From the IMG/VR virus record IMGVR_UViG_3300033273_000613, positions 1 to 64,000 of that record: a stretch of 64,000 bases of DNA; one strand, 5' to 3'. This document shows positions 1 through 48,000 of the stretch, one piece after another; the stretch's first letter is position 1; each line of letters opens with the position of its first letter. Under the pieces are notes generated by a model. The model searched no databases, was not told the origin of the DNA, and worked only from the letters and a program-made list of their open reading frames with translations. Position numbers and translations under genes: made by a program. The DNA comes from a virus.

Positions 1-77
1 TTACTTGGTGTTGTTGATGGTGTATTTGTATATGTTGTTGTGGTAGTTGGAGTAATAGATGGTGTTACGGAAGGTGT
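1..77 (-). repeat. Exact direct repeat, copy at window edge
   Basis: These 77 bases are identical to 817-893, at an offset of 816 bases, which preserves the reading frame. Both copies encode Thr/Pro linker. The repeat may extend left of the window. Confidence 0.9.
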
Positions 78-19629: not shown

Positions 19630-19637
19630 TTTTTAAA

Positions 19638-20906
19638 TTATAAATTTCCAGTTAATCTTTCACACCACCCTTTTTCTGTGGAGTATGGCCAAACAACCCA
19701 ATATGCCGGTTTTTCAGTAATATTAAATTCTCTCCAAATTTTACAGTATCCATCGGGATCCCTCATCATCCTATCAATTTCTGACTTATCCGCATCTTTT
19801 CTGTAAATGGTTTTGTCATCACTATCATGGAATGCAACAACCCAGAATTCATAATCCTTTTCCGGAACAGAATCATAACCTACATCAATACAATGTTTAT
19901 ATATTGTTGCAAAACTCTCTAACCATGATTCTTCATCACCGTAATGATCAATTCCTGGGTTTGGTGGATAGTGCTTGTCTAGAGTATATTGTTGAATACC
20001 TCTTTTTCCAAAGTGTAATCCTGAATATTCCTCATATTCTTGAAGTGTTCTGACAGAACCAAATCCATATTCACCATCATGACCTTCTTGTTCCTCACCA
20101 TCCATCGCAAAAAGTTTCCTGTTAGTTGCGTGAGATTTTTGGTTTCTACTTACCCATTGCTTATCATCGTCCCACTGTTTTGTACGACCTTTTCTAGTAT
20201 ATTCGTGCCATATGAGAACTTTATGTGGGTGGAATAAATCATACCCCCAAGTGTAAGCCCTAGCAGCTATTGAAATTTCTTCTCCATGGAAATAATATTC
20301 TGGATTGTGTTGGACCTCTGTTGAAAACTTACCAAGAGTAAACGCGTAATGTGCAGAATAGAATCTAGACGGTACTGGAGTATCTAATTCTTGCCAGTTC
20401 GGTATTGTTTCTGGTAAGAAGAATACTGCACCTTCCGGTATAAATCGGTCAAACGCCATTCTCCAGGGTTCTTGTACTCTAGCTTGAGGATCATTGTCTG
20501 GATCAAAAGATGATACGTAAGCAGTTAATAAAGGTTTTGGAATTCCCTGTTTTTGTAACTGTTTTACCATATCAATCATTTCAACATCCCAATTAGGTGC
20601 AAAACGCATGTGTGAGTCAATTTGTAATGTATATGTTTCACCACTATACACTTGTTGTACTTGGTGTCTTGCCCAACAGACTCCTTTACTTTCTTGGTAA
20701 GGTACATCGATAATTCTAAATCTTTTATCTTTAGAATACTTATCTAAATTATCAAAACCATCTTCTGGATGGTATTGTCTACAAACACCGATGACCAAGT
20801 TTTTAGGTCTTTTAGCGTTTTTAATCATATCTTCAATTGTCTTAACTAATTCAGGATCCCTGTAAGACGCTATTTGTACGAATATTGTTTCTTTTTTTCT
20901 AGGCAT
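19638..20906 (-). CDS. GT60-like polypeptide GlcNAc-transferase homologue
   Basis: This 422-residue protein matches the family containing Dictyostelium Skp1 Gnt1 and trypanosome mucin-type polypeptide alpha-GlcNAc-transferases (Pfam GlcNAc, CAZy GT60). Visible hallmarks are FVQIASYRDPEL at residues 9-20, KGVCWAR near 73, the donor/metal-binding LQIDSHMRF near 93-101 followed by NWD, a later IWHEYTR, and YGFGSVRTLQEYE toward the C-terminus. Known members transfer GlcNAc from UDP-GlcNAc to Thr or hydroxyproline in proteins. There is no signal peptide or membrane anchor, so it should act in the cytoplasm. It lies between the 2,340-residue and the over-5,721-residue Thr/Pro-linker proteins and 8 bases before the three-domain gene. 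Self-modification of those linkers is inference; host glycan modification is the alternative. Confidence 0.88.
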   Translation of the reverse strand: MPRKKETIFVQIASYRDPELVKTIEDMIKNAKRPKNLVIGVCRQYHPEDGFDNLDKYSKDKRFRIIDVPYQESKGVCWARHQVQQVYSGETYTLQIDSHMRFAPNWDVEMIDMVKQLQKQGIPKPLLTAYVSSFDPDNDPQARVQEPWRMAFDRFIPEGAVFFLPETIPNWQELDTPVPSRFYSAHYAFTLGKFSTEVQHNPEYYFHGEEISIAARAYTWGYDLFHPHKVLIWHEYTRKGRTKQWDDDKQWVSRNQKSHATNRKLFAMDGEEQEGHDGEYGFGSVRTLQEYEEYSGLHFGKRGIQQYTLDKHYPPNPGIDHYGDEESWLESFATIYKHCIDVGYDSVPEKDYEFWVVAFHDSDDKTIYRKDADKSEIDRMMRDPDGYCKIWREFNITEKPAYWVVWPYSTEKGWCERLTGNL

Positions 20907-28069: not shown

Positions 28070-31000
28070 TTACAAATCAAAGTAATTTTTTAAATTGTTA
28101 ACGTAATATTGAATTATTTGACCTTCATAGCTTGTAAATTTATTAGCAAAGTTTAATTCACAATCAGTAACTCTCACATTTTGAGTACCTAAAGTATCAC
28201 TTAATTTGTGATAATAATCTTTAGGTTTAGTCTCAAACAGACCATTTGTTGTTGTTATTGTGACACTTAGATTTGATATTATATAATACCAACTACTTGG
28301 CGTATATGGTGACAATCTTTCAATTTCAAATTGAATACCAAATCCTTCTTGGTTATTATAATCGAATAATGCCAATCCACCGTTAGAATTTGTGAGGTTT
28401 GTATTAACACTAATAGCCTGATTATTTACTAGACTATTTATACCGTTGGTGTATGCTAACCAACTATCACCATTTTGATTAACCGCAGAAACTCTTAGAA
28501 TTGATAGGTCATCAGCAATAGTGTCATTATAACTCCCCTTAAGACTAAAAGAAAGGTTAATATTAGTTATCGATGAATTAGTAAATTGATTATCTAATGC
28601 AAATTTTTGATAAATTATATTAGGTCTTTTATCATCCCCTGCAACACTCATGAAATTTTGATCGTATTGTGGGTCAAAAATGAAATCGTTAGATGTAGTG
28701 GTAGTGTTAATTAAATTAAGATTATATTTTAATCTATTTGGTTCCAAATAATTCTGATCGATAGGTCCTAATGTATTTCTAACAGAACCACATGTGTACG
28801 TTCTAAATCTACGATAAGACATATAAGCTGCAGCACCTTCAGTCTCATCATAATACGACTGATAGTCACCACATCTTAAACATTCACTAAAACGTGGATT
28901 TGGTAAGTTATTATCTAATGAATTTAGTTCAAGTTCAGGATATAATGTTTTCCATCTTGATCCAGAACATAGGAAAGTATGGTGTAATCCAAAAGTATGA
29001 CCTAATTCGTGTACACAGACTTCATCTAATTCACTATATATTAATTGATTTACCGAACCAACATTTAATTCTAAGGTAAATCCTGGTAATTCCGCGATCC
29101 CTAAAATAGGTGAACTAGTTCCCTGTGAATTTGAGATTATTATACCTTTATGGAAACCCGTTTCCATAATACCACCGTAATTGTCGATAAAGTAACTATG
29201 GTATTCTATTCTATCTAAACCATCTAAATCTGGGTTGTCCGCAATAAATATTTCATACTCGACATCAAATAAGATTTCGTCAGTATTTTCGATGGCTTCA
29301 ACGATTCTTTCACCACATTCCGTAGCTACTTGAAGTATCAAGTTCTCCGAAGCAAAACTTAGAATTTCTTGCGCTACGTCAATTCTAATCTTTATTGTAC
29401 CATCGAATATCTGATTTTCTTCTGGATCATCAACCCCACTTGGAATTGGTACTACTGGCGGATCAATATCATCATCCTGGTTATCATAGAAACAACCTAA
29501 TGAATAACATTCGTATCCAAATTCATATAATTTGACAAAGTCATAGACAATTTTATCACCGTTAGAATAAAATTTATCTAGTAAATTTTCACCCTCATAT
29601 GGGAATGTTTCTTTTATAGGTTGACCTCTCCACCAATCATGGTACACAAAAATTCCATTTTCATAAACATCATTGTAACCAACTACTTTATATTTTGTCT
29701 CCCAGTTTTTAACCTTTTCATTATTATATGAAAGAGCTCTGATCTGTGTAAATTCACCATAATCTGCAGGTTCTCCTTTTAATTTTTGATACGTAGTACC
29801 TGAGACTATATCACCAATAGTAAAAATACCTAATGGACCAGTCTGAACTTGTTGTGTTCGATGATTATAGAAATCAGTCAACGGGTGGAAAACATAAATA
29901 TTACCCGTAGTTAAACCACTTAGATACAAATATCCAAATCTTGAAACATCACATAGATTTTTATGTATCTCACACAAGAAATTTTCATCACTTAAATCAT
30001 CTAGCGATCCAATTCTATGAACATAATCCGGATATGATGCTAATTCATCTAAATGTTCCCAGTCTTGACCTTCACCTACACCGATTGCAATTATTTCCTG
30101 GTGATAAACATATGTGTCAAATAAACCATAAGTAGTATTAACAATATTTGTTGGATCTAAAGCATTTCCTAAATATCCTGCATATGGTGATTTCATACCT
30201 TCTACTATAAATCTTGTTTGGAACCAAATCCTTGATGGGTCGTTTTCAGTATTGTTTGTACCTAAAGGAGATTGATTATCATTCATTCCCCAATTTAGAT
30301 GTTCAGGATTTGTTATTAGTATTACAAGCTTTTTCGCATTAGAAGCATTATTTTTCCAACCATAGCCTTGATTAAATCCCATAATAAAAGGTGTAGTGTT
30401 ACCATAATCTTCCGTTGTTTGTCCACCTCCTTCGTCTAATGAAAAGTTAGATTGGTCACCACCCTTAGTATAATTTTGCAAACTAAAGAATCCTGCTAGT
30501 TGTTCATTAATCCTCATTAAACCAGCAGGTAAATTATTTCCATATCTATTTTTAGTTATTGGGTCAGTATTTTTTGTTAAATTTGTTCCTTCGTCCTCAA
30601 TACCTATACCCCACTCTTCATATTGTACCTGTAAATCATCCATCTGTTGGAAAAAACTAAAATAAGATGTGACTGGACCAAAGAAATTCATCCACGATTG
30701 GAATTGGTGGTATAAATTTTCGTAAAATGTAACACCCGCAGTTCCATCATAGAAAGGTTTGAAAGGTAATAATCCTCCTTTGAAGTCCCTTGTAATATCA
30801 GTATAAGGTGGATGATTTCCAGTGTCATAATATGTACTCACATCACCGAAAAACTGAATCGTTTTTTGCCAATCTTCAATACTTGTTAAATTTTTGAAGT
30901 ATTGTTTATTTATTGTGAATGGTTGGCTAAATTCGTTTGTAGTATCATAAGTGAAGAAAACTGACGTTCTATCCGGATCTGTAGCACCTGTAAATGGCGA

Positions 31001-33838
31001 CTCTTTAGGCCCACAACAAACTGAGGATTGAAATCTGACATATGGTAATAATTGATCATAAATTGTAGGACATAAACAAGGATCAGACCCACCACCATCA
31101 TCACCATCACCATCTCCTGGTGGTGTCGTTTGTGGCGGACATTGTCCTCCACAATCAAATGTCGGTGTTGTAGATGGTGTCCTTGTTAAAGTTGGAGTTG
31201 GACATGTTGAAGATTCAGGATAATTCTGTTGACAATCAGGACATCCATTTTCATACTGAGGATCCATCATCGTATTTAATAAAGGTGATCCGAATACATT
31301 TAATTCGACTATTTCCCAACATGCACCGTATTGTGTACCAACATATAAGTAATAATCTTCAAAAACAAATCCTTGACCCACCTGTGAACCAATCGGTACC
31401 CAAAATCTTTTTGTATAGTTTTCATTACAACAACTTTTAGCTAGTACTTTTACTCTGTATGCGGTTCTTGTCGGTGTTTTGGTTATGGTTGGTGTTGGAG
31501 AGTATGTCGGTGTTATACTAGGAGTAATAGTCGGAGTTGCCGTTGGTGTTGTAGAACAAACACTTAATGGATTATCACAATTTGGGTCAATGTCACACTC
31601 ACAATGTGAACACGGGATATCATATTGACTATCAGAATAAACCGTCAAAGTCGCATTTGTTAAATTATCAATTGAGAATACTCCTGGCGGGTTTGCCATA
31701 TAGATTTCTTGTACAATAAAACAACTGGTATTATTAATGTTAATCACATCATTTATAGATACGTTTAACGATATATCAACATAACCAAAGTATGGACCTG
31801 CAAATGAACAACATTCAACATACTGTAATATTTTTCTTATGGGTGTTGGTGTTGGTGTGGGAGTTTTAGTTGGTGATGGCGGTATATATACACATTCAGT
31901 ATCTGTACATTCAACAATCTCCGCATTTGTAACAGAACCTATTAGTAGTGTTTCCTGTTGACCTGTGTTCTGGACACATGTGAAACACAAATCATTAGTC
32001 GGTAAATTAAAAAATACTTCTTCAACTGAAGGGTTAGTGAATATATAAGTACTACCCACTAAAGTGTTAAATAGAGTACTTACACCAGGTATATTAAAAT
32101 ATTGTCCACTTGTACATCCAACAAAAGATGAACTTGAACAAACTGGATTCGCCTGATTTATACAGTTTTCACAATTAGTATCAGAATTTTCATTCATAAA
32201 AATTACTGAACTCGGAAAATAAATAATAGGACCAAACGCGAAAGGATAATTAATTTCTGTGATTTTATAACAAATATTGTTAATTACTACCACCCAACCA
32301 AGTTGCGGTGAAACACCTGGATCAAATAACATTCTTTTGATAATTGCATCATTAAAATCACAACAATTAGTAAGAACACATTTAATCGGATTTACTGGTG
32401 AGTTTGTTGGTGTGAAAGTTGGTGTAACACTTTTTGTTGGTGTTATTGATGGTTCAGGTGTGGGTGTAGGTGTAACAGGTGTTGTTGTAGGAGTAGGAGT
32501 TACACTAGCGGTAGGACATATTACATGACCACCAGACATCGTATCTAAACAATCATCACAATCATCAAATGTTAGATCATAATTCAATGGAGGATACCCA
32601 TAATCCTGTTCAATAATAAATGTAACAATCCAACAATTTCCCCAAAGGAAAACTGCACTACCTAATGAAAGACCAGGAGGTCCGCTTCTTTGCAATACTT
32701 GATCATCAGCAGTTGATGGGCAACACAAATTTTTTATAACATATGTAAATGTAGGTGGAGGAGTACATAGACTACATTTCAAATATGGATTCAATATATC
32801 AGTAACATTAATAGCATTAGCAGGTGTCTGTATATTAGTCTCCGCACTTATATAGTAACAATGCCCATTAGTATATGTAAATATATTATTTCCTGGACCT
32901 AAAGGTGCTGTAGGATGTAGAGCAGATGATTCACAAGTTACAAATATTTCTTCAGGTGTAACACCTTCAAAACATGACTTTGCCTTATAAAGTTCAGTAC
33001 AAGGAATATATTTTCTACAATCCTTACAACCCTTGAAAAGAGTTGAATTTACAAATGGTACATTAGCGAAAGTTCCAGGTATTACTGATACAATTACCCA
33101 ACAACTTAAATCGTGGTTATCATCACCAAATGATATTGCATAACCTAAAACTGGTGGAATCCATTGTGGTGATGGAATACCAATATTCGTATTACTAATC
33201 CAGTAACTGAAGTTATAATTTACCGTTATGGTTGGGGCTGTAGGATCACAACAATTTCTTAAGTATACTCCGTAATAAAATGGTGGGGGGGCCTGTCTAT
33301 TTTTTTCCGCTTCTGATATTATACTTCCTTGACATTCAACACAAGTCTCAAAAAATCCGTCACTAATATATTCAACTTTTGGATCAACTTTTAATGGTCC
33401 GTTTTCTCTTAAATAACATTCATTATTATAAAGTATAACATTAGTAGACTCTAAACTTCTTTTTACATTAAAAAACTTTCTTTCAACCGTAGTACCTTCA
33501 CTAAGACATTTTTTGTAAAGATACAGGTCATAATTTAGGTAAGGTGTTGCCGATGGTGTTGTCGGTATTCGTAGGTTTTCTCTAGATTCAGTCTCATCAT
33601 CGTATATAACCACTTTTTTAGATATTGTTGGACTATCACAGGACTCCTTATCCTCTTTCACATATATTGTATACTCAATACCCTCTTCACTACCTACTAG
33701 ATCAACTTCTTTACCCGCCTGTAAATCAAATCGTGTGGTTGCAGAAATTATTGGGTCATTACTCATTGAGTCCACATATACATTAAATGGACCTAAGGCA
33801 TTCGAACCAATTGTTAATCTAAGTATTATTTTTCCCAT
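28070..33838 (-). CDS. 1,922-residue adhesin with Cys modules, VWA-like domain and metzincin-type metalloprotease domain
   Basis: Order: an N-terminal domain paralogous to that of the 2,340-residue protein; about eight Cys modules with short Thr/Pro linkers to residue about 890; a Gly/Asp-rich spacer; a VWA-like region at about 930-1300 with a KKLVILIT strand near 1166 and a typical IIAIGVG...LDELAS ending; an LYLSG-type beta domain; then a metzincin with HELGHTFGLHH (H1610, E1611, H1614, H1620) and a probable Met-turn AAYMSY near 1672. The C-terminal beta domain resembles that of the 1,503-residue protein. The zinc ligands and catalytic Glu are intact, so activity is plausible, on host surface proteins or for self-processing. 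The gene starts 3 bases after the 105-residue gene. Confidence 0.9.
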   Translation of the reverse strand: MGKIILRLTIGSNALGPFNVYVDSMSNDPIISATTRFDLQAGKEVDLVGSEEGIEYTIYVKEDKESCDSPTISKKVVIYDDETESRENLRIPTTPSATPYLNYDLYLYKKCLSEGTTVERKFFNVKRSLESTNVILYNNECYLRENGPLKVDPKVEYISDGFFETCVECQGSIISEAEKNRQAPPPFYYGVYLRNCCDPTAPTITVNYNFSYWISNTNIGIPSPQWIPPVLGYAISFGDDNHDLSCWVIVSVIPGTFANVPFVNSTLFKGCKDCRKYIPCTELYKAKSCFEGVTPEEIFVTCESSALHPTAPLGPGNNIFTYTNGHCYYISAETNIQTPANAINVTDILNPYLKCSLCTPPPTFTYVIKNLCCPSTADDQVLQRSGPPGLSLGSAVFLWGNCWIVTFIIEQDYGYPPLNYDLTFDDCDDCLDTMSGGHVICPTASVTPTPTTTPVTPTPTPEPSITPTKSVTPTFTPTNSPVNPIKCVLTNCCDFNDAIIKRMLFDPGVSPQLGWVVVINNICYKITEINYPFAFGPIIYFPSSVIFMNENSDTNCENCINQANPVCSSSSFVGCTSGQYFNIPGVSTLFNTLVGSTYIFTNPSVEEVFFNLPTNDLCFTCVQNTGQQETLLIGSVTNAEIVECTDTECVYIPPSPTKTPTPTPTPIRKILQYVECCSFAGPYFGYVDISLNVSINDVININNTSCFIVQEIYMANPPGVFSIDNLTNATLTVYSDSQYDIPCSHCECDIDPNCDNPLSVCSTTPTATPTITPSITPTYSPTPTITKTPTRTAYRVKVLAKSCCNENYTKRFWVPIGSQVGQGFVFEDYYLYVGTQYGACWEIVELNVFGSPLLNTMMDPQYENGCPDCQQNYPESSTCPTPTLTRTPSTTPTFDCGGQCPPQTTPPGDGDGDDGGGSDPCLCPTIYDQLLPYVRFQSSVCCGPKESPFTGATDPDRTSVFFTYDTTNEFSQPFTINKQYFKNLTSIEDWQKTIQFFGDVSTYYDTGNHPPYTDITRDFKGGLLPFKPFYDGTAGVTFYENLYHQFQSWMNFFGPVTSYFSFFQQMDDLQVQYEEWGIGIEDEGTNLTKNTDPITKNRYGNNLPAGLMRINEQLAGFFSLQNYTKGGDQSNFSLDEGGGQTTEDYGNTTPFIMGFNQGYGWKNNASNAKKLVILITNPEHLNWGMNDNQSPLGTNNTENDPSRIWFQTRFIVEGMKSPYAGYLGNALDPTNIVNTTYGLFDTYVYHQEIIAIGVGEGQDWEHLDELASYPDYVHRIGSLDDLSDENFLCEIHKNLCDVSRFGYLYLSGLTTGNIYVFHPLTDFYNHRTQQVQTGPLGIFTIGDIVSGTTYQKLKGEPADYGEFTQIRALSYNNEKVKNWETKYKVVGYNDVYENGIFVYHDWWRGQPIKETFPYEGENLLDKFYSNGDKIVYDFVKLYEFGYECYSLGCFYDNQDDDIDPPVVPIPSGVDDPEENQIFDGTIKIRIDVAQEILSFASENLILQVATECGERIVEAIENTDEILFDVEYEIFIADNPDLDGLDRIEYHSYFIDNYGGIMETGFHKGIIISNSQGTSSPILGIAELPGFTLELNVGSVNQLIYSELDEVCVHELGHTFGLHHTFLCSGSRWKTLYPELELNSLDNNLPNPRFSECLRCGDYQSYYDETEGAAAYMSYRRFRTYTCGSVRNTLGPIDQNYLEPNRLKYNLNLINTTTTSNDFIFDPQYDQNFMSVAGDDKRPNIIYQKFALDNQFTNSSITNINLSFSLKGSYNDTIADDLSILRVSAVNQNGDSWLAYTNGINSLVNNQAISVNTNLTNSNGGLALFDYNNQEGFGIQFEIERLSPYTPSSWYYIISNLSVTITTTNGLFETKPKDYYHKLSDTLGTQNVRVTDCELNFANKFTSYEGQIIQYYVNNLKNYFDL
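29935..31050 (-). other. VWA-like domain within the 1,922-residue protein
   Basis: Residues about 930-1300 alternate predicted strands and helices and end in a strand plus helix pattern (IAIGVG, then LDELAS, then a DDL segment) typical of von Willebrand A domains. The MIDAS-like DxSxS motif is not clear. Such domains usually bind proteins or surfaces. Confidence 0.5.
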
Positions 33839-33841
33839 CTT

Positions 33842-34159
33842 TTAGTGGTCGTGTCCACACACTCTAAATTCACCCATACTAAATTCTCTAACCGTCTCTG
33901 GGTATACGATATTTATGTTTTCATTTAATTTACCTGAAAACCTGGCTTGTTGGTTTGTCTTACCAAATATATCATCATCTATTATATTAAAAGAAATTTC
34001 GGGTAATTTATAAGATCTTACTAGTTTATTTTTATTAGTTATCTCTTTATATGTAAAATTAATAGGTAATACATTTTCACCGTTGAACTCTACTCGGTCA
34101 AATTCTTCTGAATCAATTATAAATTTAATTTTTTTGTTATTTTTTGTAATTTTTAACAT
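33842..34159 (-). CDS. Small protein of unknown function, 105 residues
   Basis: A Lys- and Asn-rich, probably beta-rich small protein, starting with MLKITKNNKK and ending in CGHDH. It has no Cys modules or Thr/Pro linker, no signal peptide and no membrane segment. It sits 3 bases after the 119-residue gene and 3 bases before the 1,922-residue gene, so it is very likely co-transcribed and perhaps a small structural partner or chaperone of the adhesins. I do not recognise the family. Confidence 0.75.
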   Translation of the reverse strand: MLKITKNNKKIKFIIDSEEFDRVEFNGENVLPINFTYKEITNKNKLVRSYKLPEISFNIIDDDIFGKTNQQARFSGKLNENINIVYPETVREFSMGEFRVCGHDH

Positions 34160-34162
34160 AAT

Positions 34163-34522
34163 TTAAGCATTATCTATATATTGAGTTATGACATTATATT
34201 CAGTCACTGGTGTGACTTGCTTTAGTTCCGTAAATTTACCTTCTAAACTACTAAAAGACTTACCATCAAATTCACCTGTTGAGTTTCCTTCATTATCGAC
34301 GATAAAAGATGCACCTTTTTTCATGTAATCATAAAAATCACTTATTACATTAACATATAAAAATGAATATCCATTTTTTGTTTTATTTTTGAATGTACAC
34401 TTTGTGTATTTTCCGTCAACAAAAATATTTCCGGCACCATCAGATTCTGATCCTACAAAAGAAACTTTTATATCATCTTCTTGTCTCCCTAGATTATTAA
34501 ACCCTGTTGTAACGTTAACCAT
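34163..34522 (-). CDS. Small protein of unknown function, 119 residues
   Basis: An Asn/Gly/Phe-rich small protein with a single Cys (near residue 42, in TKCTFKN) and no membrane segment. It lies 10 bases after the 1,503-residue metzincin gene and 3 bases before the 105-residue gene. The short spacing and shared strand support a real gene. No family is recognised; a virion accessory protein or assembly factor for its large neighbours is a guess. Confidence 0.75.
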   Translation of the reverse strand: MVNVTTGFNNLGRQEDDIKVSFVGSESDGAGNIFVDGKYTKCTFKNKTKNGYSFLYVNVISDFYDYMKKGASFIVDNEGNSTGEFDGKSFSSLEGKFTELKQVTPVTEYNVITQYIDNA

Positions 34523-34532
34523 TTTTATAAAC

Positions 34533-37500
34533 TTAGTCTTTATAATAATTATATAAATAATAATTTAAGGTCCTCTTAATTATATTCAATTCATAAGAAT
34601 TATATAATTCTGTTCTGTTCGCAGTTGTCGCATAACTTTGTACGATTTCACCATTTGAAGTTGTATTAAACAGATCTGTTGGTAATTTTTCTAATACTGT
34701 ACCGTCAGAAAGGTGGAACTTAATCTTTATATCTGTTCTAGTTAAGGTTAATCCAACCCAAAAACCAGAGCTTAAAATTCTTTCTCTACTTATTTTTAAC
34801 CCAAAACCGTATTGGTCGTTGTAATCGAAAACATTAAATAGATTATCACCAGAAATAGTTATTGTTTTATAACCAGTAGTAGTTCCCGTAGCACCACTTA
34901 GAATATTATAAGTATTTGTGTTACCAGAATTTATTAAATCTATTGTAGTAAATAATGATGTTTGATCCCATGCATCTTTATAATCGATTTCTATATAATC
35001 TAACTGTGGATCACCTATTTCTACATTATCTAAAAAACCAATATAACTAATGTTTATCTTATCACCAACATTAGGTATATCTTGACCCTTTAAAGTGGTA
35101 AATGTAGCATCAGAATCAATTAGATTTTCATCTAAAACTGCTTGAGCATTAGGTGGACAATCATAAAATATCGTATTAAATGAACCTTTAGACATAATTG
35201 AAAGTTTTTTTGAGTCGAGTCCCGACAATTCACCGTAATATGCCATATATTTTATTTGATTTCCTGTAGTATCTCCGCTAGATGTCAACTCAGGAGGTAA
35301 ATAAACCTCACCACCTGCAGTATCTAACCCATCAATTAACAAATCATTAAATACACTTGACCATCCTTGTTCAGTTGTAGGTTTCAAACCTAAATTACAT
35401 CCCAAAAGATGTCCAAACAATTTTCTATCCCAACTACCACTATTTGTTAGATCGCTCACTACCATTGTAGAATACACACTTTCTTCGAAAACTTGTCCTG
35501 TAGCAGTATTTTCCACATCTAAATCACCAGGTACTGAAATTTCAGGACAAATACTGAAAATTATATGAGGAGAACCACCAGAATAATTTTTAGGTGAACC
35601 TCCAAGTATATTTTCATAGTATTCTCTAAAACTAGTATTATTTCCCACATCATATGGTGGTATCACATCGAAATCAAAAATTTCCCAACTTATATCAAAA
35701 TTAAACCCGTAGTTACCAATGACCGCATTTTCTTCAATGTGTGAACTAAAATAATTCAAAGCCGAAATTATACTGGTATTAATAGATGTACTATCAACAC
35801 CAGTTCCATCACCATAAAAACTATTCAAGTAGATAAACAATTTTATTCTAACGGTACCCGTAAAATTAATAGTCGGTTGGGTATCTGAAGGATCTACAAT
35901 ATCAAACTCATAATCGATCAAACCTCCATTATCATCTATGAACGGTATTTGGTGCGATCTAAAAAGATTATACCCCAAACTCCAATCGTCAAAATCAACT
36001 ACCTGATAGAATGTTTCACCATTTGTTAGTGTATTATTATCATATTCAAATCCAGTATTATATGTTAATCCAGATATTTTATCCCCAATACTAGGATTGA
36101 TACCTATAGGTTCTATAGATGTGAAAAAATAAGTAAAGTTTGTACCCAAACCACTCAGAAATAATGTTTTACTTGAGAAAAAGCTAAATTCCACATCTTT
36201 ATAATTCTTATGTACCGCACTCAGAGTATAATTAGGTTCTGTACTTCCACTATAAAAATCATATATCAGTTCTAGTCCTTGTGGTGAAATTTCTTTTCCA
36301 TTTTCAGAAGTATCACCAGTCAAATTTAATATCTTTCCAGTATCTAAAACAATTGATAGGTCATAATTTATATTGTTTTTATTAAAAAATAAAGTTTTGG
36401 GTTTTCCAATAAATTCAGGGCTAAATTCTCCACCTGTAATTTGATTTGGCGGTATAGTAAATTCTACCACTACAGTATCTCTCTCTTGATTTAATACACC
36501 AATTTTGTAATAGTTTTCCGAAGCATCAGTTGAAATAAAAAATGTTGAATTAGTTGAACCTGATTTTGCATCAAGATACCCAAAAGCATCATACGCATAA
36601 GAATTCCCTGTTATATAATCATCGTCAAGTGTTATACTTTTTTTGATCGTTTCCTGGGAAGTTTCTAGAGTTACTTTAACTGTCGTCGATTCGCCCACAG
36701 TTAGATATACATCTCCATCATCGGCCAAATCGATATCCTGCATTATTGTATAATTCTCACTATTATAAAATGTATAAAGGGTTGAGACGTCTGGGGTTTC
36801 AACAAAAGAAAAATTAATATGATTTGTAATAGTATATCTCTCAACTAAATGAGTAGTTGAATAGGTTTCTCCGCTTATCACAACATCATTAGCAACTCTT
36901 AAAACATAAAAATAATTTTCGTCAACTTTAAAATCTTTTACATTTATAATTGAAAATTTACCTAATAGTGTTTCTGATAACAAAGTTCTGGTTTTATTGA
37001 ACGTACTTAAATTAATCGCATTGATATATGTTGGAGGTTCTGTTTGATTTTCTTCTAGATCTATTTCAATTATATAAAGTATATTATCACTAGATTCATT
37101 TAAACCAAAAAAATGATTTTGTGAATATAATGCAGGTTTACAACCTTTTACCTCATAAGATGTAAATCTATCATTAAATGGGAAAATAACTCCCGGATGT
37201 GAGGTTTTTTTAACACCATCCCATTCAAATATCGAGTTGAATTCTTTTGCCTTTCTTGTGTACGTTGATCCTGTCGTTCTGATTTCTAGGTTCATATCGT
37301 CCATTTCTAGAATAACATTACCTGCGAAAGCAGATACATTCTGTGGAAGATAATATATTCTAATCATAAAATTAGACAAATTGTCATAGTCTAAAATACC
37401 TTTAGAAATTAAATTACTAATATTCAATTGGATACTTTGTTGTGTAGTATTACCCGATATTAAATTTTCTGGTTGAGATTCTGGTTCAGTTTTAAAATAT

Positions 37501-39044
37501 ACAACTTCATAGTCACTACTAACCGGATTGGGGTCATTTTCCTTTCTCGCATAAATAACATATCCCATTGTATCTGTCCATGTTACATCATTCGGATCGA
37601 TATAAAAATCCCAATAAGATATCATCATATATTTTTCGATTCCAGTTGTAGCGGTGAAATTAAGTGTCATTCCAGTGATCTCTCCTTCTGAGAATTCACC
37701 ATTTGTCATGTAGGAAAATAAGTTTAAATTCAAACCGGTGTACACACTAAATCCTTCGGCATTAGTTTGTCCCCTATTAATGAATTGACATCCAATAGGA
37801 TCAGTAGTTAAAGGATAATCTCTGTAAGTTGTGTTTGCAGAATATATTGTATTAGTCCTATCCATCAATGCAGGTGCATTGAATGGTGCATTATACAGAG
37901 GTGACGGGTCCATTTGGTAAGACATAATCGCAGAATAACCTGGTGCTTCTCCAGAGTATGCAATAAAGAACTGTCCTTCATTGTAACTTGGCTGTGTATT
38001 TGCAATTGACAAAAATCTAGTAAGACCATCGATAGCATCAACAGGTAGATCGGGAAAAAGATCTATCCAACCACCTACTAAATTATTAAAACTATGATCC
38101 AATCCCAAGCAATGACCTAATTCGTGAAGTTGTACTTGTGCCCACCAATAATCATTTTCTAATTTTGGTATATTAGTCCACAAATTTAAATTGATTATTG
38201 AATATGGTGTATGCATATACCCAAAACCAGTATAAAAACCATCCTCATAATCAGTATAAATGACCTGATAGTGACATCCCGTCTCTTTATATAAACCACC
38301 TAGATTAAAATAATGGTTATAAGAGATAATTGCAGGTAAAAAATTCATGATTCCGGGATTATCATTATATTCTTGAACAACATCGTTATGAACTGTATAC
38401 TTAGTACCAGGTCTATAAAAAGCATCTTCTTCATTTGTTATAATATTGAGGTCATATTCATATGAATAATCATCAAAACTATTATTAAAATACGTTTTCA
38501 TAAGTTCAAGAATATCTGTAAACCTAGATAAACACTCATTGTAATTGTCAAATCTTAGAAATATATCATAATCTACGTCAACTCTTTGTCTGAGAACTCT
38601 ATTTGGAAATGTGGTACCTGTCAATTCATTTTCATTGATATACTTCATATCGTAAACTATTAGCTCACCATCACCAAAAACATCAAATGGTGGTTTATAT
38701 TTGTTTTTCATTCTAGCAAGCATAAAATCCGAAGTCCAAGTAGACCATTCTGAATTATCATATTCATCTTTTGTAATAACTAAAAATTGTGATTCAGTAA
38801 CTTTAATATTATTACCATCCTCTTTCTTAGCAGGAATAGCTGAAAATCTTTGTTTTGTAGCTCTATACCCTTTAAAGTCTGATAAGAAAAGTTCGACTTC
38901 AACATATTCTCCTGGGTGAAATAAGTATCTACCGTCCTTAGAAGTTAAATCACTATAAGGAGTATTAAACTCGGATCCAACAACCCTATAAACCAATCCA
39001 CTGGAAATCCCTGAAAGATATAAATTGTTTGTATTAGTTCCCAT
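34533..39044 (-). CDS. 1,503-residue protein with an intact and a degenerate metzincin domain
   Basis: The first half starts with an LYLSG beta domain, then a metzincin with HELGHCLGLDH (H307, E308, H311, H317) and a Met-turn AIMSY at M374, then a beta-sandwich region to about 640. The middle (about 650-950) is beta-rich, possibly propeller-like. The second half repeats the plan: LFLSG near 960, an alpha/beta region, GHLLGCNLGLK near 1205-1216 where the zinc-binding helix should be, and a retained Met-turn-like SIMS at M1284, then a C-terminal beta domain similar to that of the 1,922-residue protein. The second copy lacks the HExxH ligands and is probably inactive. There are no Cys modules or Thr/Pro linkers. 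It lies 30 bases after the 3,440-residue gene. Role in virion or host-surface processing is inferred. Confidence 0.88.
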   Translation of the reverse strand: MGTNTNNLYLSGISSGLVYRVVGSEFNTPYSDLTSKDGRYLFHPGEYVEVELFLSDFKGYRATKQRFSAIPAKKEDGNNIKVTESQFLVITKDEYDNSEWSTWTSDFMLARMKNKYKPPFDVFGDGELIVYDMKYINENELTGTTFPNRVLRQRVDVDYDIFLRFDNYNECLSRFTDILELMKTYFNNSFDDYSYEYDLNIITNEEDAFYRPGTKYTVHNDVVQEYNDNPGIMNFLPAIISYNHYFNLGGLYKETGCHYQVIYTDYEDGFYTGFGYMHTPYSIINLNLWTNIPKLENDYWWAQVQLHELGHCLGLDHSFNNLVGGWIDLFPDLPVDAIDGLTRFLSIANTQPSYNEGQFFIAYSGEAPGYSAIMSYQMDPSPLYNAPFNAPALMDRTNTIYSANTTYRDYPLTTDPIGCQFINRGQTNAEGFSVYTGLNLNLFSYMTNGEFSEGEITGMTLNFTATTGIEKYMMISYWDFYIDPNDVTWTDTMGYVIYARKENDPNPVSSDYEVVYFKTEPESQPENLISGNTTQQSIQLNISNLISKGILDYDNLSNFMIRIYYLPQNVSAFAGNVILEMDDMNLEIRTTGSTYTRKAKEFNSIFEWDGVKKTSHPGVIFPFNDRFTSYEVKGCKPALYSQNHFFGLNESSDNILYIIEIDLEENQTEPPTYINAINLSTFNKTRTLLSETLLGKFSIINVKDFKVDENYFYVLRVANDVVISGETYSTTHLVERYTITNHINFSFVETPDVSTLYTFYNSENYTIMQDIDLADDGDVYLTVGESTTVKVTLETSQETIKKSITLDDDYITGNSYAYDAFGYLDAKSGSTNSTFFISTDASENYYKIGVLNQERDTVVVEFTIPPNQITGGEFSPEFIGKPKTLFFNKNNINYDLSIVLDTGKILNLTGDTSENGKEISPQGLELIYDFYSGSTEPNYTLSAVHKNYKDVEFSFFSSKTLFLSGLGTNFTYFFTSIEPIGINPSIGDKISGLTYNTGFEYDNNTLTNGETFYQVVDFDDWSLGYNLFRSHQIPFIDDNGGLIDYEFDIVDPSDTQPTINFTGTVRIKLFIYLNSFYGDGTGVDSTSINTSIISALNYFSSHIEENAVIGNYGFNFDISWEIFDFDVIPPYDVGNNTSFREYYENILGGSPKNYSGGSPHIIFSICPEISVPGDLDVENTATGQVFEESVYSTMVVSDLTNSGSWDRKLFGHLLGCNLGLKPTTEQGWSSVFNDLLIDGLDTAGGEVYLPPELTSSGDTTGNQIKYMAYYGELSGLDSKKLSIMSKGSFNTIFYDCPPNAQAVLDENLIDSDATFTTLKGQDIPNVGDKINISYIGFLDNVEIGDPQLDYIEIDYKDAWDQTSLFTTIDLINSGNTNTYNILSGATGTTTGYKTITISGDNLFNVFDYNDQYGFGLKISRERILSSGFWVGLTLTRTDIKIKFHLSDGTVLEKLPTDLFNTTSNGEIVQSYATTANRTELYNSYELNIIKRTLNYYLYNYYKD

Positions 39045-39074: not shown

Positions 39075-42000
39075 TTAGTCCTCGGTGTAACCTATAAAGT
39101 TATTTGCAACTTTTACATCTGATTCGACATTTGGTGAATATATAGTTTTGATTTTGAGGTACCATCCGTCTACCTCCCATATACTATTAGTATACACCGC
39201 CAGATTTTCAGAACCTAATATATTTGGTATTACCAATTTACTATTTTGTGTTCCACTAAATGGCCAGAATTCACTACTGTCATCATAGTAGTATTGAGAA
39301 ACTGAAACACCCACAATACTGGCTATATATGTAGCATATACATAACCTTGTGAAGGTGTTGGTGAATTTGTAGGAAATGGAGTACTATAAAGTACATCTG
39401 TGGTCGAAGGTGTCAATGAGTTTGTTACTGTTACTGATGGTGTTACAGATGGTGTGTAAGTATTTGTTGGTGTTATAGTATTTGTCGGTGTTACTGTATT
39501 AGTCGGAGTCTTCGTTGGTGTTGGTGTTATACATTCATTATTGAAATTATTACACTCATCACAATCCTCAAATTCATTTATTGGTGACTTAAATTCGTAA
39601 CCAACGTATATTATGTCAGCAATTGCTATCACCTTATAACAAGTATTATCTACAAGTACTACATTGTTATCAATTGCGTATGTCTTAGACAAGTTGACTG
39701 TGATTACATCACCATCACAACATCCACTCAATTGTACACCAACATAATTTATCGGACTTTCAGTAATCGATGGTGTCACTGTGGTAGTATTGGAAGGTGT
39801 ATTTGTAGGTGTCTGGGTCTGTGTCGGGGTCTGGGTTGGTGTTTCAGTTTGAGTTTGTGTTTGAGTTGGAGTTTGAGTTGGAGTTTCGGATGGTGTAACC
39901 GTATTTGTCGGAGTATTTGTTGGTGTTGGAGTGTTGGTAGCACCTAACGATTTAGTTGGCGAAGCGGTCGGAGTAATTGTCGGCGTATTGGATGGTGTTT
40001 GAGTATTTGTTGGGGTATTACTTGGTGTTATTGTATTTGTCGGTGTCTGAGTAGTAGTTGGTGTATTAGTCATAGTCTGAGTCGGTGTCAAACTAGCAGT
40101 ATTAGATGGGGTATTTGTTGGTGTTGCAGAATTAGATGGTGTAATAGATGGTGATAAAGTAATTGTTGTAGTTACGGTTGGTGAAACTGTAATTGATGGT
40201 GTTGGACTTTGAGTGTTAGTCGGTGTATTTGTTGGTGTTTCAGATGGAGTTACTGAAGATGTTGGTGTAAGAGTATTTGTCGTAGAAGGAGTATTTGTTG
40301 GTGTCTCAGATGGTGTCACACTATTAGTTGGCGTATTTGTTGGTGTAGGTGTATTTGTTGGTGTTTCTGTATTACTCGGCGTTTGTGTCGGTGTAGGTGT
40401 GTTCGAAGCCGTCTGTGAAGGTGTTATTGTTGGTGTCTGTGTAGACGTAATAGATGGTGTCACAGTATTTGTTGGTGTGTTAGTTGGAGTCTGTGTCTGA
40501 GTCGATGTCTGAGTAGGTGTTTGAGTACTAGTCGCAGTTTGTGAAGGTGTAACTGTATTTGTTGGAGTATTAGTTGGAGTCTGTGACGTTGTTACTGTTG
40601 GTGTTGGTGTAGGACAGATAACCTCAGAAGTACATCCACTACATGATGTATAAACATCTGACTCAACTAATTCACCATTATCCCTATCAGATAATTGTAT
40701 AACTTCGTAACATTCATCGTTATATTCTATAATGTCATTAATAGAAATCAATCCGTTGACAAGAACTTCCTTTACATCATTTCTACAACAAGAACTTATC
40801 ATTACTGATTTTATAAGATCCTCTAACTTACCACTAGGAGTAATTGTAGGAGTATTAGTTGGTGTTGGAGTATTGGTTATAGTTGCTGTTAATGTTGGTA
40901 AGATACCTTCTCTTAATGTTGAAGAACATTCAATATCATAATCGATACTCATATTCAATGACATGGTAGCATCTTCTAGCGGATCTACGTCATCAATAAC
41001 TTCTGACTTGACAGTAACAAGATTCGTCAGTAAATCCACATCATACTCACTGAAATATTCAATTGATGATAGTATCGATGAAACTGCCGATGCCCATTGG
41101 TTATCGGATGGATAATCGTAGATATTAGTAGAGTTGTAGAAATTAACTGTTTCGTCAATTGTTATACCATCACCCAATATGGTAACTCTAGCCGTAAATG
41201 TTGCATTAATGAGTACACAACCAGCGTTACCATAGGTTACCTCAGTAAATCCTTCATCAAACATATTTTTGATAGATCTCTTACCTGATGTGGTTATATT
41301 AAAGTCACTACTAGAAATTTCTATTATCTGACTAGATTCTACATTAATTGATCCTTTTAATTCAACACTTTGTTCTAATAAACAACCACTACTATCTATA
41401 ACTGTTACAGTGTAAATACCAGAAGTTAAGTTCTCATATATACTCTGATCAGAAGCATTACCACCATTGAAACCATAAAAATATGGTGGTGTTCCATCGG
41501 TTACTAGTACTTCAATTCTTCCATCATTACCATTTACTGGTTGTTGAACTATTAATGTAAAGTTTATACCACTACTTGTACCAATAGTGAAATAATCCTC
41601 TAAACTACATCCATTATCGTTTGTTAAAGTCGCCACATATGTAGAAGGCGCTAGATTAACTACATTAAATGATGCTGTGGTTGTACCTATATTTTGGAAT
41701 ACAATTTGTTGATTTACCGTATTTTTAACTATGATATCATACGTTGAGGTAATTCCTAATAACTCATCTAGTAACTGATCATTATTACTGAATATTAATA
41801 TATATGCAGACCCATTATTTTGACCACATGTAGTATCTGCAATAGTTTTTTGAATAGTAAATGGTATCTCAGCGTCACCTATTGTTAATTCAGATTCGAA
41901 TGGACAAATATATTCTTTTTCAGTAGTATTATTTATTGTACCCGCAGTAATACTCCAAGGTCCTGAAGCCAAACCAGTTTGATATGTATCAAATTGGTTA

Positions 42001-45000
42001 GTTACAACATCAAACTCTACCTCACCGTAATTAGAAGTGGGTGAAGAACACACACCATGATATCTAAATAATGTTTGACCCACTACAAATTGACCATCAA
42101 CTTGAATACTTATCGTACCATCATTTCCACAACCAGCATCAGTCTTAGTAATTTCAACACTATTTAAACCTCCAAGATCGTTAATTGTAAAATTAGTAAC
42201 CGTATTATTGTTTGATTGACAACCATCAACATCTCTAACTAGAATAGTGTGAGCACCTGCACATAACCCTGTAAGTGTCACTTCATTACCATCAACTTCC
42301 ACAAATTCTCCCTGGTCCAACTTTACCTCGAATGGTGCCGTACCACCAGAAATTGTGAAATCAATTTCACCATTACAATCAAGACATTGTACTGCTCGAA
42401 GTATAATGTCATTTACAGTCAGTAAATTGACTGATGACATAAAAAAGTTTTCGGTAACCGCACAATCATTCGAATCTATTATTGTAAATGAAGTCTGACC
42501 AACACTGTAACCTGTGAAAGCATATTCATTATTTTCGGTCTCGGCACTAAATCCATTAGGGAAGTATAATTTGTACGGAGATTCACCCGCAGTGATATTA
42601 ATATTTACAGAACCACCAGTCAAATTACATTGTGGAACACCTTCAACAGTATAGTCATACTCAACTAAAGTCGAACTTTCTAAAATTACTGTCTGCGATA
42701 CTGAAGTAGTATTATCACTACCCACGATACCAACATAGTAAGCTCCTGGAGATAAGTTGTTATATGAAAATTCGGGGGTAAATAAGTTAAATTGACCGAC
42801 TAAAATTTGATCTCTATAAAGATATGAACTTACAGGGTAATTATCAACAGTTGTAGTACCACTTATCAATCCGTTATCATTACCACATGTGGTATTTCTA
42901 ACTTCATTAATTGATATGGATGTACATCCTTGAACTGCCAAGCTTATAGACCTTACTTCACCTATAGAATCTGTAAAAGTAAAACCATATACACCATTAG
43001 GTAATCCATCAAATACAATGTTATTATATATTTGTTCTGGATAGTCACCTAATGCCGACTCAGGTGCTGGTCCATTATATTGTATAGTATATGGTTGAAC
43101 CCCTCCATTAATTACTATTGCAATTATACCACCATTTTCATTTTCACATGTACCTGTTACAGATCCAGTAATTTCGTAATTTACCCTAGTCTGATTTGTA
43201 CATTCAACATAACCACTAACATCAACACCATAAAATTCCTGACTAGTATCAACACACACATTTATACCACTAGTAAAACCTGTAACTATCGCACCTGAAG
43301 TACAATCAGTATATGAAAAACTACCTATTGTAGCTCCATTATAACAACCAATTCTTGAACATTTCGGACAGTCATCTGAATTACAGATATCGGAAGTCAA
43401 ACTAGAAATAGTGAATTGTGGTATATCAAAAACAGGCTCACTTAAGAAGTAACATTCACCACCTTGTATAAATCCATAGTTATTGGTGTAGCCAGCGTTT
43501 AAATCAAAATTATCTAATGCACTATTAATTTGACCCAAAGAAAATCCTGTAACTGATGGGCTCACATACACATCAAAGTTTTTAAGTCCTGAACCTATCT
43601 GGTACTTAACATCTAAGTCTAAATATGTAGAATTAAGATGTAATTCATCATATTTATTTTCACTAATTAAAGCTTGTAGATTTAAATTTTGAGGACCTAC
43701 ATTATAGATACTTTCTCCATATTTATTTTCATAATATCCAGGACTTAAGGTACTTCCCTCAATTGACGCCACCACATGTTGTACGAACGGAACACTATCC
43801 CTATTGTTTTCAATTACCGGGTATACTAATACATTTATAGATCCACCACTTGTTTGTACCTGGTTCCATACTTTCAAATAAGTCTCATAGTCATGAACAA
43901 ATCTTTCTGTTGGTTCGAAGTATAAACCTTCAGAATCACTAAAATCTGTGAGTTCATTTTGCCAACCATTACCATCTAATCTGAATGGATTGTTATATAA
44001 ATCTGATTTTTTTGACCCACTAGAATCCGTAGATGTAGATCCGTGATAAAGCCCTACATTACCACTAGATTGATTTGTTACTATAATTGATGTATAATTA
44101 GTATCCTCACCGGCAAAATTACCATATACATTAGTAAATGTATCTTCTTGTCCACTTTCTGGTGTAAATGGTATACCATTACTTCTCGAATCACTAACAC
44201 CATATGAACCTTCTAAACGATATCCAAAACTAACACGTTTATAGATGTCACTTTCAGTTGATCCACTTTCACTTAAGTTAAATGATGGATTTTTAGGTAC
44301 ACACTTACCATCGTCATTTGATTTACACCATCTAGAATCATATTTACTGTGTTCTACAGATTCACCATTAGCACCAAAAGCAGTAATAGTATTACCATTT
44401 ACTGTACCAGCCGAAAGAGAACCTAAGTATGGATATGATGCATACCATAACCAGGTCTGTCCATTATCAAGTACACCACCAGTTACAATTTCATAAAGAT
44501 TTCCAGACTCATATTCATTATTATTAACTTTACCTTGATACCACGATCTTATATTTTCGGAAGCATTTTTTAACTGGGTTGCAGTAAGATTTGTAGAATC
44601 ATAAAATACATATATTTTCTGACTGTTCGCTGGGACACTAACAATTAATCTATTAGAACTATTACAACAATTTTTGGCAACCCATGAATTTTGTAAATTA
44701 GTTGGAGTTATAGTTGGCGTTACTGATGGTGTTAAATTTGGACTTAAGGTAGGTGTCTGTGTGGGATCTGCAGTCCTGGTAGGTGTCGAAGTAATACAAG
44801 GGAAGCTTGTAGTACATTCTGTACAAGAGTCATAATCCAGATCATAATATAACAGTCCAGATTTAACACCTTTTGGAAGTGAAACTACTGAATAGCACTT
44901 ATCATTTAATCTAAGAGATTGACCAACTGTTGCATCTCCATTAACTAAAATTTCTAACACAGGATCTGATGGATCACAACAATTAGAAATAATAGCTATT

Positions 45001-48000
45001 TTCGTTGCTGGTGAAGGTGTCGGAGTTAAGGTATTTGTAGGTGTGGGTGAAAGAGTAGAATTAATAGATACTGTTGGTGTATTTGTTTGTGATGGTGTGG
45101 GTGTTGGAGTTGAACATGGGTTACTAATACTACATTCTTCAAATGAACTATACGTTGTGTCTATTACTGCCATACCTATCGCAGGTCCACTAGTATATGA
45201 TAACGCATAGTAACATTTACCAGTAAATCCAAAATAATCACCTGGATTTACATTGTTACTTAAAAATAATGTTATTGTATCATTATTACAAACACCTGAA
45301 ACACTTACTAGATTATAAAATATTTTTTTAGTTTCACTTAATGTTGGTGTTGCAGTTGGTGTTAAACTTGATGTTGGGGTTACACTAGAGGTTGGTGAAT
45401 TTGTCGGTGTTAATGACGCAGTATTTGTTAATGAAGCAGTTATACTACTTGTAACTGTAGGGGTATTAGTAGGCGTCTGTGTATTGGTAGGTGTGGGTGT
45501 ACTTGTCTGGAATGTAGTTTTAGTTATTGATGGTGTTGGTGTATTTGTAAGCGTATTAGAAGGTGTTGCGGTATTTGTTGGTGTATTTGTTGGCGTATTC
45601 GTATTTGTTGGTGTTATTGATGGTGTTACAGTAGGTGTAGGTGTAGGACATGGTTGAGATTCTCTGATACATACCGAACAATTAGTAAATGTATCAGAAA
45701 GATTGTATGTTAGTTTTTCAGTAGGATTTAATGTAGGATCATACTGAACAATAAAACATTTACCATTTTGGTCAGGATATGTAGATCCAGTATATATGAA
45801 TACTTGACCAAGGGGAATTTGATCGTTTATATAAAAACCATCAGGGAATGGCTGGGTAATTCCGTCACAGCAATCTACAGGGTTAACTTTATAGTATTCA
45901 TATATAATTGGAGAAATAGAAACAGTTTGTGTAACTGTAGGAGTATTAGTCGGAGTACTTGTTGGACAATTAGAGATATTTTCAGGACAATTGTCACATA
46001 TTCTAGTTGTAACATTATTAACTAAATGATCATAAAAACTACCAGTAATCGTATAATTATCTCTCCATTCCCAACAATAACCGTCAAAAGTAAAACCATC
46101 ACCATACTCAAGGTCACCAATTAACGTACTTAAAACTTTAAACGTACCCGTTTCATCATTACAACAATTATAAAAAGTACCATAAACGTAAGCAGGTGTC
46201 TTAGTTAGGGTGGTTGTTGGTGTTGCTGTGGGTGTAAGTATTAAATTATTAAGTGCAGTTGCACAATTTGAGTACCATAATAATCCACTAGTGATTGTAG
46301 GAGCAATATTATATTCTGTCGTATCTACTAATCCAAATACACTTCCTTTATAAATGAAAGCATCATTACTACCAGCGGACTCATAATAACTCTTCGATAT
46401 AAAATGAGTGGTAACTTTTTCACTTTCACCACTACCAACACAAATATTAAACGTATAACTTGTAAATGGTGGAGCCTTTTTATTTACTGTGGGTGGTGGA
46501 GTCTTAGTGGGTGTAATCGATGGCGTATTTGTTTGGGTAACAGTAGCAGTAGGTGTTATAGATGGGGTTATTGATGGTGTCGGAGTATTAGATGGTGTTA
46601 CTGAAGGTGTGGGTGATGGACAAAGATTTGTACAATGTTGGTTAGAACATACATTTTTGACTATGTCATCCGCATCCAGAGTGATAATTGGTGTGATCGT
46701 AAGATCTTCTTTGTAGAATTCATAGCAAGTCCCAAAATAAATGAAACCGTCTTTTAAGAAATAATCTAAACTTATACCTAAAGCAACTATTGTGGTATAC
46801 TCTTCGTAATTTGCCAGTGATGGGTCAATTATGACCCCGAAATTTTTAAGTCCTGCTCCGTTTTGTTCACTTTCAGATAGATAATATTGATACGCAACAG
46901 TAGACGTCAGTGCCGAATATACATTTGTATATGTTAATGCACTAAGATTTAAATTTTGAGATCCTACCGATTGTATACTTTCACCAAATTCATCTAGAAA
47001 TCCTTGTTGGGTTATTGTTTCACCTAAGTACGATGCAATATTATGCATCTGAAATGCATTATTCCTAGTGTCACCGTTAGGGACAGTATAGACATATGTA
47101 TTGGTTTCACCACTTAGGTCCTGGATTTCTGACCATACTTTTAGATAGGATTCATAATCATGAATAAAACGATTACTAGGTTCTTTTACATTCTCACTAT
47201 CCCATCCTGACCCATCCAAAGTAAACGGATCAGTGTATAGATCTTCTTGAGTTTTGTTCCCATGATAAAATCCAATATTCCCACTACTTTCTTCAATTAC
47301 AGTTATAACTAAGTAGTCATCAATTCCACCATCAAAAGAACCTGAACCAGATCTAGAAGTTTGATTTAATTCACTGTGATTAAAAGGTACACCATTAGAA
47401 ACCGAAGTATTTATACCAGTATCTAAGTCTTGACCTCGGTTAATCCTTCTAAAAATAGAATTACTATCATTAACTTCTGTCTTAAATGGTGCACATCGAT
47501 ACCCTGATATTGAAGGGTCACATGATCCACTAACAAAAAGACTGTTTTGTATAATATCGGTAAATTCTGTTATATCCTCAGATAAAACAGATAACGTACC
47601 ACCAGTTAATGAACCTAAATACGGATACGTTGACCACCACAACCAGTTTTCACCATTTCTTTGTGATCCTTGGTTACCAATAACCATCTCATAAAGATTA
47701 CCCGGTTGCCATTGTCTTTTGACTATGTATTCACTATACCATCTTCTAATTGTTTTTGAAGCATTCTTGATATGATCAAGATTTGAAATGGTACCATCAT
47801 AAAATACAAATATTTTCTTGGGATTTACGGGGGCCTCAACATAAATGTCTTGAGAAGGGTTACAACAATTCCTAGCAATGTACTTTGTAATATGTTGAGT
47901 CGAAGTTACTGTCGGTGTCGCTTGAATTGTAGTAGTTAACGATGGTGTTTGTGTTTGTGTATGTGATGGGGTTATGGTAGGTGTGGGGGTTGGTGTACTT

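Follow-up and report, generated by a model that had tools for sequence, protein, structure and literature searches.

The DNA analysed here, referred to as the window, comprises bases 1 to 64,000 of the 71,688-base virus record IMGVR_UViG_3300033273_000613, and this report concerns two very large genes within it, g1922 (28070..33838) and g1503 (34533..39044), whose products of 1,922 and 1,503 amino acids carry zinc motifs of the metzincin type. All large genes of the window, these two included, lie on the minus strand. Genes at or beyond its right end resemble, by eye, those of UvsX, RNase H, a helicase, NrdA/B and gp25, and the gp25-like gene is followed by a gp6-like gene that gave Baseplate_J and baseplate-wedge matches; these genes identify the window as the part of a T4-like myovirus genome that encodes the tail. 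The metzincin genes belong to the same tail gene array, which contains the gp25-/gp6-like genes and neighbours that are conserved in related viruses, and lie at least 23 kb downstream of the gp6-like gene. Two small genes stand between them, g105 (33842..34159, minus strand) and g119 (34163..34522, minus strand), both delimited as open reading frames (ORFs) with orthologues in related viruses. We read g1503 and g1922 as tail fibres or adhesin-like proteins of this virus, equipped with metzincin modules and predicted to cleave protein on the host surface, a reading that we regard as having about an even chance of being correct.

The zinc motif of g1922 is HELGHTFGLHH (residues 1610-1620; 28979..29011) and is followed by the Met-turn MSY (residues 1673-1675; 28814..28822), whereas that of g1503 is HELGHCLGLDH (residues 307-317; 38094..38126), also followed by MSY (residues 374-376; 37917..37925), all four elements being on the minus strand. 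The positions of these motifs and Met-turns, given in a preliminary description of the locus made from the sequence alone, were confirmed. The distance from the third His to MSY is 53 residues in g1922 and 57 residues in g1503. Among the 15 window proteins scanned, no HExxH motif was found other than those of g1922 and g1503, and 4.3e-5 occurrences of HExxHxxGxxH would be expected by chance in their 20,659 residues. The codon pattern of the zinc motif matched the complete 71,688-base record twice, at the g1922 and g1503 sites. Homology between the modules around the two sites was detected by blastp (E value 1e-6) and by comparison with shuffled sequences (15 standard deviations above them).

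The preliminary description counted two intact domains, and both are indeed intact; it overlooked a third, degenerate copy in g1503. This protein consists of two tandem modules, each comprising an 'LSGL' domain, a metzincin domain and a beta-sandwich, with a middle region at approximately residues 650-955. Module 1 (residues 148-646; 37107..38603, minus strand), delimited from a model and an alignment, is the intact one, and its inserted beta-sandwich is followed by the C-terminal helix 'FTSYE'. Module 2 (residues 1061-1503; 34536..35864, minus strand), delimited by alignment, is degenerate in the window virus and intact in both of its close relatives. As read from the codons, its zinc site is HLLGCNLGLKP (residues 1212-1222; 35379..35411, minus strand), in which the Glu and the second and third His have been lost while the frame has remained open, and its Met-turn is MSK (residues 1284-1286; 35187..35195, minus strand) where the relatives have MSY. 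The ancestry of this copy is apparent from its similarity to the same region in the two relatives (33 and 52 standard deviations above shuffled sequences), to g1922 (9.5) and to module 1 (5.0). In g1922, the single metzincin module, assigned by homology, occupies residues 1478-1922 (28073..29407, minus strand), and a beta-sandwich appears to separate its Met-turn from its C-terminal helix.

The two relatives, designated G038 (60,030 bases) and G039 (104,710 bases), were obtained from a codon-pattern scan of viral contigs followed by profile scans. Their gp6 proteins are 87% (G038) and 86% (G039) identical to that of the window virus, and the gene order g3440-g1503-g119-g105-g1922-g2340 is the same in both. 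Module 1 of g1503 carries HELGHSLGLDH in G038 and HELGHNLGLDH in G039, module 2 carries HELGHGFGLRH and HEFGHVLGLRH, respectively, and g1922 carries HEMGHTFSSHH and HEMGHTFGLHH. Consequently, HELGH[C/N/S]LGLDH is found in module 1 and HE[L/M]GHTF..HH in g1922 of all three viruses, both orthologues of each intact window module retain the Glu and the three His, as the preliminary description had asked of its homologues, and these four residues are present in eight of the nine modules, with module 2 of the window virus as the sole exception. All nine modules could be aligned, and all have in common a W, a Y..E..G stretch ahead of the Met-turn, MS at the turn itself and a C-terminal SYE. From the zinc site to the Met-turn, the two intact window modules are 52-63% identical to their counterparts, and no segment exceeds this one in any of the comparisons; the degenerate module 2 reaches 35-41%. 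When a tree was built from the nine modules, each of the three module types formed one clade with support of 99-100, although the placement of the long branches is unsure. These three supported clades indicate that the module copies are older than the three viruses, and the loss of ligands from module 2 is best read, from the sequences at hand, as derived in the lineage of the window virus.

A model of g1503 residues 1-646 was built from the nine-module alignment (mean predicted local distance difference test score, pLDDT, 61; predicted template-modelling score 0.57). The best Foldseek match to module 1 of this model was bothropasin, a snake-venom metalloproteinase (E value 6.4e-5). With VIA, module 1 was superimposed on acutolysin A with a Z score of 17.9 (187/197 residues, root-mean-square deviation 3.0), and all matches among the 50 listed were adamalysin/ADAM-type metzincins. 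An adamalysin-like fold of g1503 module 1 is thus supported by the model, as is the metzincin fold that the preliminary description assumed for this module. A search of BFVD with the g1503 model returned mostly beta-sandwich proteins, with no metzincin-named protein among the matches listed. For g1922, the model had a mean pLDDT of 55 and was uninformative in its zinc region (pLDDT approximately 27-39); VIA gave no metzincin match to that part and aligned the beta-sandwich alone. A metzincin fold of the g1922 module and of g1503 module 2 is suggested by their homology to the modelled module.

In every VIA match listed, the last aligned residue of g1503 was 646, beyond the beta-sandwich at approximately residues 420-615, and the final helix starts with SYE in all nine modules. 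These two observations suggest, as the simplest reading of the model, that the C-terminal helix is separated from the Met-turn by an inserted beta-sandwich of about 200 residues, a placement that was deduced from first and last residue ranges rather than from a residue-by-residue alignment. The g1922 beta-sandwich matched part of an M6 peptidase (Z score 8.6) and MAM domains (approximately 8), which are middling values for a common fold. Its resemblance to MAM and carbohydrate-binding modules (approximately 7-8.6, middling) would suit proteases that attack the surroundings of the host (extracellular matrix, mucus or protein of a biofilm) instead of its cell surface. The matched fold is of a common type, and we consider this matrix-cutting role quite unlikely.

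The assignment to a metzincin family was approached through Pfam profiles, extended motifs and fold. Reprolysin_5 was among the best Pfam matches, occurring in seven of the nine modules, and scored 23.6 bits on the g1922 module (gathering threshold 27); Reprolysin_3 scored 12.8 bits on g1503 (threshold 22.4), and Peptidase_M10 (threshold 24) scored 19 bits on g1503 and 15.8 bits on the g1922 module. Peptidase_M43 matched two of the nine modules weakly (best E value 0.011) and was not listed for whole g1503 or g1922 at an E value of 1 or less. The complete pattern HExxHxxGxxH is carried by g1922, g1503 module 1 and both relatives' copies of module 2, and is absent from module 2 of the window virus. 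By fold, the closest known proteins are the adamalysins or reprolysins (M12B), which include the snake-venom metalloproteinases and ADAMs, and the extended zinc motif and Met-turn are alike. Asp after the third His is a criterion for this family, whereas the residue at this position is Thr or Ser in all intact phage modules, which also differ from adamalysins in their sub-threshold Pfam scores, in the beta-sandwich and in being part of a phage tail protein. The phage motif HELGHxxGLxH[S/T]F resembles both the matrixins (M10) and the M43 pappalysin/cytophagalysin type, from which the modules are set apart by the same low M10 scores and scarce M43 matches. An MSY Met-turn is reminiscent of serralysins and astacins.

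Several of these observations weigh against the proposed proteolytic role. The metzincin Pfam families all scored below their curated cut-offs for the window proteins, and matches to PHROGs and NCBIfam were weak as well. Model confidence was low for both g1503 and g1922, with a poorly modelled Met-turn region in each. One of the three modules in the window virus is without its zinc ligands, and the g1922 motif of G038 (HEMGHTFSSHH) has Ser in place of the usual Gly; the ligand loss and this substitution together imply that activity may be dispensable. It is conceivable that the modules descend from metzincins but function in binding, as adhesins, their catalysis being dispensable or already lost. 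Such a role would account for the Gly-to-Ser change, for a module 2 that has lost its ligands and yet remains open and otherwise conserved, and for beta-sandwich inserts that resemble binding domains. It is difficult to reconcile with the retention of Glu and three His in eight of nine modules across three divergent viruses, and with the stronger conservation between zinc site and Met-turn in the intact modules than in the degenerate one, and we regard it as doubtful.

The genes g1503, g119, g105 and g1922 form a cassette that a virus of this group either has complete or lacks altogether, the rest of the tail gene array being conserved. In two more distant relatives, G022 and G023 (gp6 identity 74% and 71%), the g3440-like gene directly adjoins the g2340-like gene and the cassette is missing, so that it occurs in three (the window, G038 and G039) of the five records covering this site. 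Of 80 loci with gp6 relatives, 37, mostly the longer contigs, were searched for g1922 and g1503, and no match was found in these 37 loci, most of which are fragments; the N-terminus of g2340 was matched in 4 of 39 records (the 37 loci together with G038 and G039). Among 237 loci searched, g119 and g105 were found solely in those of G038 and G039. In a tblastn search of 50,697 phage records, the C-terminal part of g1922, g1503, g1770, g105 and the N-terminus of g2340 were unmatched. Single-protein scans of viral contigs recovered no relatives, which were found later by codon pattern, and the later profile and pattern scans returned G038 and G039 only; as few patterns were used, absence of the cassette from other viruses is weak evidence.

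The cassette proteins have diverged considerably more than the genes on the baseplate side. Identity to the relatives is 31-32% for g1503 and 47-48% for the C-terminal module of g1922, as compared with 86-87% for gp6, 84-86% for g302, 64% for g1048 and 58% for g1770, a difference that fits host-facing parts. It fits less well with maturation proteases, that is, with modules that process giant fibres or further virion proteins of the virus itself at assembly, because enzymes of maturation are usually conserved. The position of the cassette among giant repetitive tail proteins would be in keeping with such a function, and some of the zincin-like peptidases of jumbo phages, which comprise SprT-, ArdC- and other zincin-like types, have been proposed to act in virion maturation (PMC7824862). 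These are zinc peptidases of large tailed phages, like the putative ones described here, and the word metzincin does not occur in that paper (PMC7824862). The relatives without the cassette nevertheless possess homologous neighbouring tail proteins, whose production thus does not depend on the protease, and a role in maturation is therefore judged unlikely. Among the three roles suggested in the preliminary description, surface proteolysis, fibre processing and matrix cutting, we infer that the first is to be favoured: g1503 and g1922 appear, from sequence comparison, to be a clade-specific, fast-diverging pair of tail-fibre proteins that probably act on protein at the surface of the host.

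Metzincins had been described beforehand as rare in phage tail regions, and this statement was examined in viral contigs, where HELGHxxGxxH is common and was found in at least 120 stretches (loci L004-L123). In these loci 82 ORFs with HELGHxxGxxH were counted, HEFGH forms, likewise allowed by the scan pattern, being left uncounted; 76 of them are 350 amino acids or shorter, 3 are 350-600 and 3 exceed 600. The three largest ORFs and two from the codon-pattern scan gave matrixin, reprolysin or M43 matches, and FG-GAP repeats adjoin one of these five large proteins and DUF4280 another. Phage-associated metzincins are thus not rare, and the claim of rarity has to be qualified; giant tail-region forms were seen only in the window virus and its two relatives. 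A set of 47 stand-alone viral metzincin-like proteins, obtained by making 66 of the 82 ORFs (those of 140-330 amino acids) non-redundant, matched in profile comparison at the zinc helix only (21 and 47 columns; probability 96), which supports the site and not the whole fold. A strict pattern search of a genome collection, narrow in that it covered only CAT as the codon of the first His, gave one match, read as an M43-like secreted protease of a Bacteroidota metagenome-assembled genome. The g1922 module was unmatched in that genome, and no cellular origin was traced by this narrow search.

A literature search for phage-tail metzincins and metalloproteases found no tail-fibre metzincin among the open-licence papers listed. 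Mtz of Listeria is a metzincin of phage origin that is described as secreted, has a TIMP-like lipoprotein partner and is linked to lysis (PMC8235301). It is phage-associated and has HExxHxxGxxH and a Met-turn, like g1922 and g1503, and unlike them it is not a tail protein (PMC8235301).

The architecture of g1922 suggests how a tail metzincin might be deployed. The N-terminal domain, best conserved over residues 1-80, is shared with the fibre-like g2340 (33% identity over 297 residues), which together with the location downstream of the baseplate genes supports the earlier placement of these proteins in a virion region. It is followed by Cys-rich segments and Thr/Pro-rich linkers (residues 80-950), a region resembling von Willebrand A by eye and without Pfam support (residues 951-1284; 29987-30988, minus strand) and an 'LSGL' beta domain (from residue 1285), the stalk containing six Cys-Cys sites and the metzincin module lying at the end. 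Because relatives that lack the cassette have homologues of g2340 residues 1-80, this shared domain is taken as a docking domain, through which g1922 would attach to the particle. The long stalk, rich in Cys and Thr-Pro, would then hold the protease at its far end, and the modules would extend outward from the tail and cleave protein on the host surface. The inserted beta-sandwich and the degenerate module would probably bind rather than cut.

Tail-fibre enzymes that clear the cell surface of sugar polymers, among them the phage capsule depolymerases, are well known. Cleavage at the surface by g1503 and g1922 might open access to the receptor, much as polysaccharide depolymerases do by removing capsules; the proposed mode is alike, whereas the proposed target here is protein and the folds differ. 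The modules represent a known protease superfamily in an arrangement that is new for a phage tail. If the host-surface reading is correct, the tail protease would be a counterpart of the sugar-clearing enzymes for protein-coated hosts, and could help to explain host choice in a large uncultured T4-like group. The group also provides a natural comparison, since some of its members have the cassette and others lack it, and one module has kept its zinc site in two viruses and lost it in the third; whether catalysis is required can therefore be addressed directly.

The small protein g105 carries Cys-Gly-His near its C-terminal end, followed by one or two final residues, in all three orthologues, which are 27-29% identical. 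A Cys at the zinc keeps several metzincins latent. One may imagine a cysteine switch in trans, in which the Cys-Gly-His of g105 would reach into the active-site cleft, bind the zinc and hold the tail metzincins inactive up to the moment of adsorption, with the ligand-less g1503 module as a substrate-binding arm, although we consider this very improbable. Cys-Gly-His is no longer than the other invariant three-residue runs of g105 (IKF and FGK), and its conservation lends the latch weak support. No relatedness was detected between g105 and g119, and g105 gave no Pfam match and no credible match to a solved structure.

The closest named phages are Flavobacterium phages for UvsX (42% identity) and Flavobacterium phages, Microcystis phages and an uncultured phage for gp6 (27-29%); a Bacteroidota host would be a guess. 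The gp6-like gene (locus L003, 2382-4220) has more than 600 relatives in viral contigs and only six matching phage records, each with less than 30% identity, and by sequence it is part of a large uncultured T4-like group. Upstream of g1503, g3440 (39075-49397) contains an internal duplication (residues 497-922 and 1563-2010, approximately 36% identical) and a sub-threshold SprB-repeat match (E value 8e-5; 22.6 bits, threshold 28). No meaningful solved relative was found with the profiles of g1048 and g1770. At the left edge of the window an open frame of 5,721 amino acids (3-17165) gave no Pfam match at an E value of 0.01 or less in the pieces scanned. In the region 17218-20906, g803 combines a TylF-type methyltransferase, an HtrL_YibB domain and a GT2-like region, and g422 is a GlcNAc-type glycosyltransferase that is 90% identical in G039 despite the divergence of nearby fibres. 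In G039, g2340 is followed by two glycosyltransferase genes. In both G039 and G022, the glycosyltransferase genes are followed by genes for large proteins (L225, 11615-19336; L236, 12808-19998) that have, by eye, a Hint/intein-like start.

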